DNA of 42,736 bases from a virus, in IMG/VR virus record IMGVR_UViG_3300043773_000468, positions 1 to 42,736 of that record. One strand, written 5' to 3'. The notes beneath the pieces were generated by a model that was given only the letters and a program-made list of their open reading frames with translations, was not told the DNA's origin and searched no databases. A program made the translations under genes and the position numbers. Of this stretch, positions 17,341 to 23,228 are shown in pieces (positions within the stretch are counted from its first letter, which is position 1; each line of letters opens with the position of its first letter).

Positions 17341-17643
17341 AAGGTGGGGAGGTTCTGTTTCCACGCCCTCCCCTGGCGCATGTTAGGCTGCTAGAGCCAA
17401 ACGAGGTGCAAAGTTATCGTTTGCATTTAGAATTTGCGCTGTATACGACAGTCGCCTCTCGGTTATCTCCAATTCACTATTCTACGCTTGTCGAGCCTAA
17501 TTCGCCCCCATCAAAGACACACGAAGACGATTTGCCGAAGCATTCTTACCCATCTTAAGGAACAGCTCCGTGTGTCTTTGGTGGAGGCGGCGGGAATCGC
17601 ACCCGCGTCCAAAACGTTTTTCGATCCTCTTCATCGATAACAG
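17341..17643 (-). ncRNA. ssrA: Two-piece (circularly permuted) tmRNA
   Basis: Read on the minus strand. First comes the acceptor piece (about 17643-17579): it contains a T arm (stem GCGGG/CCCGC at 17606-17590), the strand CGCCTCC, discriminator A and an encoded CCA ending at 17579. A 69-base intervening segment (17578-17510) is closed by a perfect 12-base stem, CAAAGACACACG with CGTGTGTCTTTG. The coding piece starts at 17509 with GGGGGCGA, which pairs with CGCCTCC and places a G-U at the third pair, the alanine identity signal. The tag frame is 17424-17383: ANDNFAPRLALAA then TAA, close to alphaproteobacterial tags and ending in the degradation signal LAA. tmRNA rescues stalled ribosomes. The 3' end near 17341, after a GGGGAGG/CCTCCCC hairpin, is approximate. 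Confidence 0.9.
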
Positions 17644-21472: not shown

Positions 21473-22012
21473 CTATGATTGTGTGATCCATTCTGGTATC
21501 TCACGCTTTGTCCATTTGTGCATACGCGCCTTGGCCACACGATAATAGTTGCGATAAGACGATACGGAGTCATGCGGTACCTTGTACTCATCAGGCATCG
21601 CTGGCGTTACAGGCGTTAGATGACCGATTTCAATATTGTATGGTGCCCGCATTAGCCATTCACTCATGCTATCACACTTATGAGTTTTGCCATAACGATG
21701 TGTATATTCGGCCAGCAAACCTAAGAAGTGGCAATACAGCCAGTTGTAGTTGTTATTGTTCGCACGACACCATACGGCTGATGGGTGATTGATATGTGTG
21801 GCTGAATATAACACCGTCTCGCGGTCGTCAGGCAAACGCCAACGCTTGACATTGCGACCAGTCTTGGTCTTGTCGGTGTATTCCGTGCCATCTAGAATGC
21901 GGTGAGCGGTGGACAAAAGTTGTGCTGTCTCTAATACCATTTTCACGATATGTTTATCCACAAGCCATATTGCAGATTGGATTGGATCTTTATCTACGGC
22001 AAAAATGTTCAT
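21473..22012 (-). CDS. Conserved T4-type phage protein, possible nuclease-like
   Basis: 179 residues. The start MNIFAVDKDPIQSAIWLVDK with HIVKMVLETAQLLSTAHRIL is a well-conserved block in T4-type phages; HPSAVWCRANNNNYNWLYCH follows. The N-terminal 'DpiqsA..lvDkHivKM..Etaq.LstahR' block is also seen in proteins labelled as pyrimidine-dimer glycosylase-like, but I see no certain catalytic residues, so no enzymatic claim is made. The HNH gene upstream overlaps it by four bases, and a second partial copy of its first 18 codons lies at 22750-22809. Confidence 0.65.
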   Translation of the reverse strand: MNIFAVDKDPIQSAIWLVDKHIVKMVLETAQLLSTAHRILDGTEYTDKTKTGRNVKRWRLPDDRETVLYSATHINHPSAVWCRANNNNYNWLYCHFLGLLAEYTHRYGKTHKCDSMSEWLMRAPYNIEIGHLTPVTPAMPDEYKVPHDSVSSYRNYYRVAKARMHKWTKREIPEWITQS

Positions 22013-22464
22013 GTGTTATTTTCCAAATACCTTATTGCGTTCTGTAGAATCATTATATCATCTTTTGCATTACCAAGCAAGGTATTACAACTGAAACATA
22101 GAAGTCCTCTGACATTTCCTGTGGTGTGAGAATGATCTACACACAACTTATCGTAACGATGATCGGTATCGTTTCCGCATATATCACACTTGAAGTTTCG
22201 CTGCTCATGCATTTGAATAACTTCCTCTTGCGTCAGGCCATACTTCTTATAATAGTGACTGTATGCTTTTGTTCCTTCACCGCGCATTTTTCTCATATAC
22301 TTGGTATTATATGTGCGATAGCAATCTTTACACCAAGGCTTGATGCCATTCTTATATTTGTAAAACGATTTGGTCTTGGGATTGGCTTTAGGAAAGCAGT
22401 CAATGTGTTTTGTCTCGTTGCATTGACTGCAAACCTTTTGTTCTCCGTCTTGTGTGGTACGCAT
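22009..22464 (-). CDS. HNH endonuclease of the endonuclease VII type
   Basis: 151 residues. Two zinc knuckles are visible at the N-terminus (CSQCNE and CKDCYRTYN) and a second pair in the catalytic region: FKCDICGND, then KLCVDHSHTTGNVRGLLCFS with CNTLLGNAKDD. This DHxHxTGxxRGLLCxxCN pattern is that of the recombination endonuclease VII family, often found as free-standing homing-type HNH genes in phages. The gene stands between an intact gene and a 5' remnant of the same gene, which fits a mobile intron-less endonuclease. The stop overlaps the start of the 21473 gene (ATGA). Confidence 0.85.
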   Translation of the reverse strand: MRTTQDGEQKVCSQCNETKHIDCFPKANPKTKSFYKYKNGIKPWCKDCYRTYNTKYMRKMRGEGTKAYSHYYKKYGLTQEEVIQMHEQRNFKCDICGNDTDHRYDKLCVDHSHTTGNVRGLLCFSCNTLLGNAKDDIMILQNAIRYLENNT

Positions 22465-22522
22465 GATGTTACTCCTTATTACAGGAGTATTTAGTAAATA
22501 TCATCTTTACATCATTCTCACA

Positions 22523-22750
22523 TCATTCAATTCCAAAAAGTTCTTCAATCCTATTGGCCGAATACTCTAATGCTTCATTAAAACCGTCATAGTAATCCGT
22601 TTCCGAGATTTGATACTTACTCTCACGTAAGGTTCTACTACACTCTCTTACGATAAACTCGGCAAACTGTTCAGCATTAAACTCGCGGTGAGCTGGATTC
22701 CAACACATTTCTGCGATTTCTTGTAAGAGTTTATTTTTGAACTCACTCAT
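22523..22750 (-). CDS. Small conserved phage protein
   Basis: 75 residues from MSEFKNKLLQEIAEMCWNPA; the longest frame has five more codons but the ATG at 22750 overlaps the stop of the remnant frame upstream as TGATG. FNAEQFAEFIVRECSRTLRE and a C-terminal EYSANRIEELFGIE match the 'fa.livrEc......' and 'ik.hFGiE' segments common in small phage proteins. Function unknown. It lies 58 bases upstream of the HNH gene. Confidence 0.6.
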   Translation of the reverse strand: MSEFKNKLLQEIAEMCWNPAHREFNAEQFAEFIVRECSRTLRESKYQISETDYYDGFNEALEYSANRIEELFGIE

Positions 22751-22809
22751 CACTTTACCATCCACATTGCAGACTGAACTGGATCTTTATCGATTGCGAA
22801 TATGTTCAT
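22750..22809 (-). pseudogene. 5' remnant copy of the 21473-22012 gene
   Basis: The frame reads MNIFAIDKDPVQSAMWMVK then TGA; 14 of the first 18 residues equal MNIFAVDKDPIQSAIWLV of the gene ending at 21473, and the four differences are conservative. Third-base changes are frequent (for example ATT/ATA, GCC/GCA), so it is not a fresh duplication. It starts directly after the stop of the gene upstream and ends overlapping the next start, so it could still be translated as a short peptide. Confidence 0.7.
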
Positions 22810-23025
22810 TTAATCCTCAATTGCGTCGATGCGGAACACTTCGCCAGGTTCGACGTTCAGTGTCCGATCAATATCAGGTTCGCCGTCTGGACTCCATGAG
22901 CGAACACGGATCTTTCTTACGCCTGGCGGCACTTTCCAGACAGCATGATTTTTTGCCGCAGCATTAGCAACAATAGCAAAAAATGGCAGGGCTGTCAACC
23001 CTGCCATGAGTTGGCGTCTAAACAT
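22810..23025 (-). CDS. Small secreted protein
   Basis: 71 residues from MFRRQLMAGLTALPFFAIVA, a typical signal peptide with predicted cut after ANA; the longest frame begins 18 codons earlier but the ATG at 23025 overlaps the previous stop (TGATG) and gives the signal sequence. The mature part has KVPPGVRKIRVRSWSPDGEP and EPGEVFRIDAIED, an all-beta pattern. It is probably periplasmic. No family recognised; host-type origin possible. Confidence 0.62.
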   Translation of the reverse strand: MFRRQLMAGLTALPFFAIVANAAAKNHAVWKVPPGVRKIRVRSWSPDGEPDIDRTLNVEPGEVFRIDAIED

Positions 23026-23228
23026 CACTTTATCTTTCGGTAAGTCGCGCCACCAGTCAGAACAAGAGCCGCCAACCAATTCCAGAATGTATACTCAATT
23101 GTCAGGAATGTACCGAACAACTGATTCCATGCCCACATGTAGATTAGTGGTGCGATGGCTACAATCAACAGTGTACCAAGAATAGCGCCGAGCATCGCGG
23201 CGCTATCTTCCATTCTATCTCTAAACAC
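23025..23228 (-). CDS. Small two-helix membrane protein (GTG start)
   Basis: 67 residues. Two hydrophobic helices at about 13-33 and 44-59 (AMLGAILGTLLIVAIAPLIY and FWNWLAALVLTGGATY), with a short loop. The GTG start is preceded by AAGGAG at good spacing, while the next ATG has no such site. The pattern 'aplliymWaWnqLf....eytFWnwla' resembles small membrane proteins common in bacteria and phages. A holin role cannot be excluded, but the lysis genes are at 40594-41909. Confidence 0.6.
   Translation of the reverse strand: MFRDRMEDSAAMLGAILGTLLIVAIAPLIYMWAWNQLFGTFLTIEYTFWNWLAALVLTGGATYRKIK

Follow-up and report, generated by a model that had tools for sequence, protein, structure and literature searches.

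A free-standing HNH endonuclease gene in the virus record IMGVR_UViG_3300043773_000468 separated an intact gene, here called gene X, from a second, stranded copy of its start, and this arrangement is probably a scar left when an F-CphI-like HNH enzyme homed without an intron and the break was closed by one-sided, partly illegitimate repair, as judged from the sequence comparisons below. The window analysed was the whole record of 42,736 bases, to which all positions refer. On its minus strand, the locus read in order up89, the X stub, a small ORF, the EndoVII-type HNH gene, intact X, a transcription-regulator-like gene and phoH (Table 1), with the start codon of X overlapping the stop codon of the HNH gene (ATGA). 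At the position equivalent to the putative cut site, the window allele was flanked by recoded sequence and would presumably be protected from the enzyme.

Table 1. Features of the X locus in the window; L numbers denote loci on other contigs.
Feature	Position	Strand	Remark
up89, upstream neighbour ORF, left flank of the event	22810..23079	(-)	translation may begin at an ATG further inside
Stranded native X 5′ end, resident allele nt 1-53	22757..22809	(-)	51/53 nt match to the L003/L004 X start
Stub read as an ORF, MNIFAIDKDPVQSAMWMVK-stop	22809-22750	(-)	stop codon at 22752-22750
Left (putatively illegitimate) junction, resident X nt 53/imported DNA	22756..22757	(-)	L003/L008 alignment diverges past ATGTGGATGGT
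Small ORF	22523..22750	(-)	75 aa from ATG 22750, 80 aa from GTG 22765
Conserved HNH-cassette leader, where the mobile core begins	22465..22516	(-)	AAAGATGAT repeats and ACTAAATA box
EndoVII-motif HNH endonuclease, 151 aa	22009..22464	(-)	PF02945, E 1.7e-22
Intact gene X, 179 aa	21473..22012	(-)	phrog_624, PF03013 (weak)
Imported, recoded X 5′ end (nt 1-81), co-conversion tract	21932..22012	(-)	holds all HNH-diagnostic sites
Equivalent of the putative cut site, X nt 52-59	21954..21961	(-)	stub ends 53, 53, 59; L006 switch 52-56

The first-pass annotation had reported that the first 18 residues of X recur in the stub with 14 of 18 equal, followed by a stop, and that an endonuclease VII-type HNH gene and a small ORF sit between the stub and intact X. 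All of this was recovered, the stop lying one further codon downstream of the 18. A tblastn search of the record with X returned exactly two places, the intact gene and the stub (E 8.7e-6 for the stub). Compared with the single X start of the HNH-free loci L003 and L004, the stub was identical at 51 of 53 nt, both differences falling in codon 11, and the X of L003 and L004 occupied the stub's position, next to an upstream gene that was otherwise nearly identical. This degree of identity at the same place indicated that the stub was not a chance resemblance. Two other IMG/VR contigs (L001 and L002) carried the window arrangement with 0 mismatches over 1877 nt, and a third, L085 (contig 3300046010), carried the same junction behind an upstream flank partly different from that of the window, its stub being identical at 53 of 53 nt to the native X start of L019. 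The junction in these three further contigs ruled out an assembly artefact. The L085 contig itself stopped at X nt 55, near the putative cut site (L085:4453-4507), an end that perhaps reflects both X start types coexisting in the sampled population.

A scan of IMG/VR with X yielded 341 relatives, of which the best 80 of 341 were retained. The comparison with HNH-free relatives, proposed earlier as a check, revealed a single X and no second copy in L003, L004 and L008. These loci had near-identical flanks, no small ORF and no HNH gene, and their one X began where the stub begins, directly next to up89, whose protein was 100% identical in L003 and L004 and 99% identical in L008; the downstream flank protein of all three was 100% identical to that of the window. 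Within X, the start in use in the window differed from L004 at 19 of 87 nt and the rest of the gene at 25 of 450 nt (P = 7.5e-6). The stranded start was that of the native allele and the start now in use was of the HNH-linked type, as the first-pass annotation had supposed. Its proposal that a related allele had replaced the resident one held for the 5′ part of X (~nt 1-81/110), which was clearly imported, but not for the body, which was mostly of resident type and patchy in the window; this pointed to partial replacement with co-conversion, not whole-allele replacement.

The same allele types decided against a tandem duplication of X in one lineage in which one copy then decayed and the HNH gene was inserted afterwards. 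Such a history would explain two head-to-tail copies of the same start, but the stub resembled L003 (51/53) whereas the intact start belonged to another type (19/87) common to other HNH-containing phages, and HNH-free relatives carried one copy. The difference in allele type ruled the duplication out, leaving it practically no probability, and the earlier judgement that a recent tandem duplication was unlikely agrees with this.

Two observations at the window locus counted against homing. The right flank of the window matched L003 with 0 of 560 mismatches, though the X body differed at 25 of 450 nt, and a donor of the window's cassette (small ORF-HNH-X start) was not found. X was a local divergence hotspot also between the HNH-free loci L003 and L008, with 49 of 534 differences in the gene and 25 of 1560 in the flanks. 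The patchy X body beside an identical flank suggests that either the right-hand conversion tract was patchy or X was exchanged more than once, and more than one exchange of gene X is probable from the pattern of differences.

The HNH protein matched the endonuclease VII family phrog_2633 and contained an N-terminal CxxC...CxxC zinc-finger-like region. It shared ~37% identity with F-CphI over 138 aa, and its PDB profile matches were the restriction enzyme Hpy99I (2e-12) and T4 EndoVII (9e-7). According to the available text of PMC6083498, the EndoVII motif consists of CX2-4C, D-H-x-H, R and CX2C followed by N, and the motif residues C, D, H, R and N were shown to matter in F-CphI. The window protein carried the full motif (C93-x2-C96, D110 H111 x H113, R119, C123-x2-C126 and N127), whose residues were invariant in a 6-sequence alignment; the protein was also aligned with F-CphI. 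Its predicted structure was poor, with a mean pLDDT of 64. The leader in front of the gene, searched by blastn from L049, showed 82-88% identity over ~50 nt with the window, L025, L040 and L044, and no match beyond.

Relatives of the HNH gene were sought by protein and by alignment, giving 11 loci each. X lay directly downstream of HNH in 10 of 10 contigs that had at least 44% identity and extended beyond the HNH gene; the eleventh contig, L091, ended inside that gene, and a 30% match, L109, was left out. A distant HNH-X pair at L092:575-1577 had frameshifts in both genes, indicative of decay or sequencing error. When the two window proteins were concatenated into a single query, 0 of 50,697 GenBank phage records covered 80% of it in one place. 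In Aeromonas phage 1233, the match showed an apparent HNH-tail extension before X, where the annotation lists no such gene.

To assess the association of the stub with the endonuclease, native X starts were compared by blastn with as much as 2.5 kb of the sequence preceding X. Among the loci compared, the stub occurred in 8 of 14 with HNH or an HNH remnant, whereas the HNH-free loci that had at least 250 nt of upstream sequence showed it in 0 of 68; three loci were not classifiable. The stub loci represented four independent lineages (the window with L001, L002 and L085; L049 with L091; L068; and L040). Counted by lineage, defined as a distinct X or HNH type, this amounted to 4 of 9 with HNH versus 0 of 68 HNH-free (P = 9e-5). 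The absence of the stub from five of the nine HNH lineages (L025, L044, L048, L089 and L092) counted against homing.

The census bears equally on whether the stub serves as a functional leader peptide or translational coupler retained so that the small ORF is expressed. The stub's stop codon shares bases with the small-ORF start (TGATG at 22752-22748), and the end of the stub frame in L068 also spans the start of the gene that follows; yet the stub was absent from 68 of 68 HNH-free loci and was nearly base for base the resident X allele, with no sign of a history of its own. The conserved leader gene raised as an alternative by the first-pass annotation was not borne out and is ruled out by the census, and retention of the stub for its function is highly improbable. 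The coupling of stub and small ORF may be a by-product that helped the stub persist.

The junctions of the stubs would fit repeated breakage near one place in X. The stubs derived from different native alleles, and the DNA joined to them differed as well: the window stub led into the small ORF, that of L049 into a short spacer, that of L068 into a different small gene and that of L040 into the HNH leader. They ended at X nt 53 (window), 53 (L049), 59 (L068) and about 20 (L040, where the end fell at nt 19 to 24 depending on the alignment), and a fifth left junction, that of L025, was farther out than any stub, ~167 nt upstream of X. No left end fell to the right of X nt 59, and three ends lay within 7 nt. 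In the four stub lineages and L025, one junction, the right one, lay in X homology and the other was joined to unrelated DNA. An endonuclease ORF together with a foreign X start on a resident body and a stranded native end was found in the window, L040 and L049; L068 showed this pattern with HNH deleted. Comparison with the empty-site locus L050 showed that the left flank of L040 was identical at 184 of 185 nt up to X nt 19, past which came HNH and a new X start and then the resident body at ~91% identity to L050. Similarly, the X body of L025 was 99% identical to that of the HNH-free L033, with 6 of 441 positions differing, while 21 of 87 positions differed between their starts (P = 5e-13). 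At L046:5835-6032 and L040:5298-5507, a small gene upstream overlapped the X start or stub with its 3′ end, in another frame, so that the X stub doubles as the C-terminus of that small gene.

To delimit the imported part of X, we defined a diagnostic site as a base shared by at least 4 of 5 HNH-linked alleles and present in at most 15% of 48 HNH-free ones. Ten sites qualified, every one at X nt 15-81; when sets of five alleles were drawn at random 500 times, 0 of the 500 had as many sites in nt 1-87. The HNH-linked X alleles had this common recoded 5′ end on unrelated resident bodies, and the location of the recoded sites at nt 15-81 would fit resistance of the donor target to its own enzyme. 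In the HNH-free hybrid L006 (L005/L006), X was native up to nt 51-56 and HNH-type on to about nt 136, a boundary that places the switch point within X nt 52-56; the X of L005/L006 reads as a half-converted or recombined allele. The right end of the imported tract lay between nt 79 and 137 in 4 of 4 matched pairs (window/L004, L025/L033, L040/L050 and L049/L036), around the QLLSTAHR-coding block where donor and resident are most alike. A break near X nt 53-60 would give these end points.

Phylogenetic trees of the two parts of X conflicted. On the body tree (nt 91-528), built from 43 of the 56 distinct genes, the HNH label needed 6 changes for 6 HNH rows and a single clade was rejected (P = 1.4e-6), whereas on the start tree (nt 1-87) the label needed 2 changes and a single clade was not rejected (P = 0.18), with 5 of 6 HNH rows in one 100/99 branch and the L006 hybrid adjoining. 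L044 stood apart on the start tree and its X start was not of the shared HNH type, which counted against homing. Between the window and L025, HNH DNA was 96% identical, the X body 75% and phoH 80%. The tree conflict and the 96% identity of HNH DNA indicated that the HNH gene and the X start move together across phage lineages, and hence would have been grafted onto resident bodies in different lineages. Both co-conversion and inter-lineage transfer were supported by the 5′-versus-body conflict in the matched pairs and in the trees.

The earlier suggestion of homing with imperfect repair was supported by the empty and filled pairs, the census and the allele types, while cutting by the HNH enzyme is deduced from the end points. 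In the sequence of events that we favor, a free-standing EndoVII-type (F-CphI-like) endonuclease would cut resident X near nt 53-60. The right end would be resected to the conserved block at ~X nt 88-125 and would invade donor X, and, to judge from the tract, copying would run leftwards through the donor's recoded X start, HNH and the small donor gene. The left end would be closed non-homologously, since to the left of the X start the two genomes were presumably unrelated in sequence, and this joining would strand the first 53 nt of resident X. The product would be an intact X whose start the enzyme presumably no longer cuts. Like events would have occurred in L025, L040, L049 and L068, with left ends from X nt 59 leftwards, and the recipients L048 and L068 would later have lost most of the HNH gene.

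The two last-named loci retained the last 17-18 in-frame codons of HNH before X (L048:5945-6001 and L068:5900-6004). Sequence inspection located one AAAGATGAT repeat upstream of the HNH gene and one inside its KDD codons, and the loss apparently fits a deletion between these repeats. The X start of L048 was of the native type, and L068 kept its stub. The reduction of HNH in both apparently represents the loss step of the homing cycle.

Ordinary mosaic recombination among phages might also have placed the small ORF, HNH and X start, with the HNH enzyme uninvolved and the stub a random left breakpoint. In its favor, X diverges locally even between the HNH-free L003 and L008, and L073 and L074 hold a stranded phoH 3′ piece without an endonuclease. 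This diverged piece (L073:2050-3336 and L074; ~58 codons, 85% identical) lies behind an intact phoH and an 85-aa ORF, is 93% identical to the phoH of L048 and forms a mirror image of the X stub; stranded pieces can therefore arise or persist through mosaic exchange alone or after loss of an endonuclease. Against random exchange, independent breakpoints clustered at X nt 53, 53, 59 and 52-56, all stubs found went with HNH or an HNH remnant, and the HNH-linked recoded start was spread over unrelated X bodies. We therefore consider mosaic recombination unlikely and retain one-sided homing as the preferred explanation.

Intronless homing with co-conversion is established in T-even phages (PMC2988022, available text). 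As with the T-even SegF, SegG and SegB, an optional free-standing endonuclease gene sits here beside its presumed target, with target co-conversion and no intron or intein, and the free-standing HNH gene was optional between conserved genes, as is characteristic of intronless homing, being absent in L003, L004 and L008. In the account of PMC2988022, the cut of a free-standing enzyme is separated from the insertion point by hundreds or thousands of bp, whereas the putative cut here lies ~55 bp from it; unlike in T-even intronless homing, the left side here would have been repaired non-homologously, leaving a stub of the target gene. F-CphI of cyanophage S-PM2, which belongs to the EndoVII-motif or DHHRN family of homing endonucleases, resembles the window enzyme in its EndoVII motif residues, its N-terminal zinc-finger-like region and its free-standing place beside a conserved gene. 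F-CphI targets psbA, its own copy being protected by a group I intron (PMC6083498, available text), whereas here protection would come from the recoded target and no intron is present. X was one uninterrupted ORF, and an Rfam scan of the window returned tmRNA models only and no intron model.

One-sided illegitimate repair of double-strand breaks was reportedly found by Parker, Belisle and Belfort in 1999 in homing of the T4 td intron. As described in the available text of PMC2988022, one-sided homing of td with illegitimate double-strand break repair has homology on one side only and a non-homologous junction with resection on the other, like the loci studied here; unlike that laboratory system with its intron-encoded enzyme, the events here would be natural, repeated and due to a free-standing enzyme. 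Hybrid genes made by mobile ORFs in fungal mitochondria (Allomyces atp6; Glomus atp6, atp9, cox2 and nad3) likewise consist of an endonuclease ORF and a foreign target end fused to the resident body, with the native end stranded (PMC3630166, available text). The window locus works like these fungal hybrid genes but is not a member of them: the fungal cases involve C-terminal ends, LAGLIDADG or GIY-YIG enzymes and mitochondria, whereas the window has a 5′ end, an EndoVII-type enzyme and a phage genome. A literature search on phage homing with partial duplication, hybrid genes, truncated copies or illegitimate repair, and on homing endonucleases at a pyrimidine-dimer gene, with subscription journals thinly covered, gave no phage report of a stranded target-gene end.

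One gene thus offers a natural series of empty, filled with stub, filled without stub, half-converted and HNH-deleted loci, from which one can predict, to within a few bp, where an uncharacterised homing enzyme of the EndoVII family cuts. The series suggests that the one-sided illegitimate homing of the T4 laboratory system also occurs in nature, and that it builds phage hybrid genes as in fungal mitochondria. A broader proposal is that HNH travels as a discrete mobile unit, a 'resistant exon' cassette, together with its leader of ~52 bp and the first 80-110 nt of X in their recoded form. One-sided homing would be the usual way in which this cassette spreads, its right end set by the conserved core of the target and its left end by whatever the repair joins; we judge the chances of this being right or wrong to be about equal. 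If true, phages would have in this cassette an equivalent of the hybrid-gene elements of fungal mitochondria, one that gains new upstream genes and writes target-gene stubs recording the cut site.

Gene X scored 25.2 bits against PF03013 (pyrimidine dimer DNA glycosylase family; gathering cut-off 23) and matched phrog_624 with E 6.8e-54, and a PDB sequence search with E up to 1 gave only unrelated cellulases (E 0.25 and 0.27). With a weak PF03013 score and no useful PDB match, the function of X stays uncertain. The small ORF was missing from L003, L004 and L008 and from the other HNH-containing lineages, which had other small genes or a spacer there, and probably hitch-hiked in as donor DNA lying upstream of HNH. 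It had no match among GenBank phages, and in IMG/VR three distant kin were the only ones outside contigs with the window arrangement; kin with 41-71% identity lay elsewhere in L096-L098. Tandem paralogues of a small family (MNERIKEL...FAELIVREC), of which the window small ORF appears to be a member, were seen at L097:3508-4508. Elsewhere in the window, a permuted tmRNA of alphaproteobacterial type at 17383-17641 (-) (Rfam RF04321, 135 bits; ARAGORN tag ANDNFAPRLALAA) suggests an alphaproteobacterial host.
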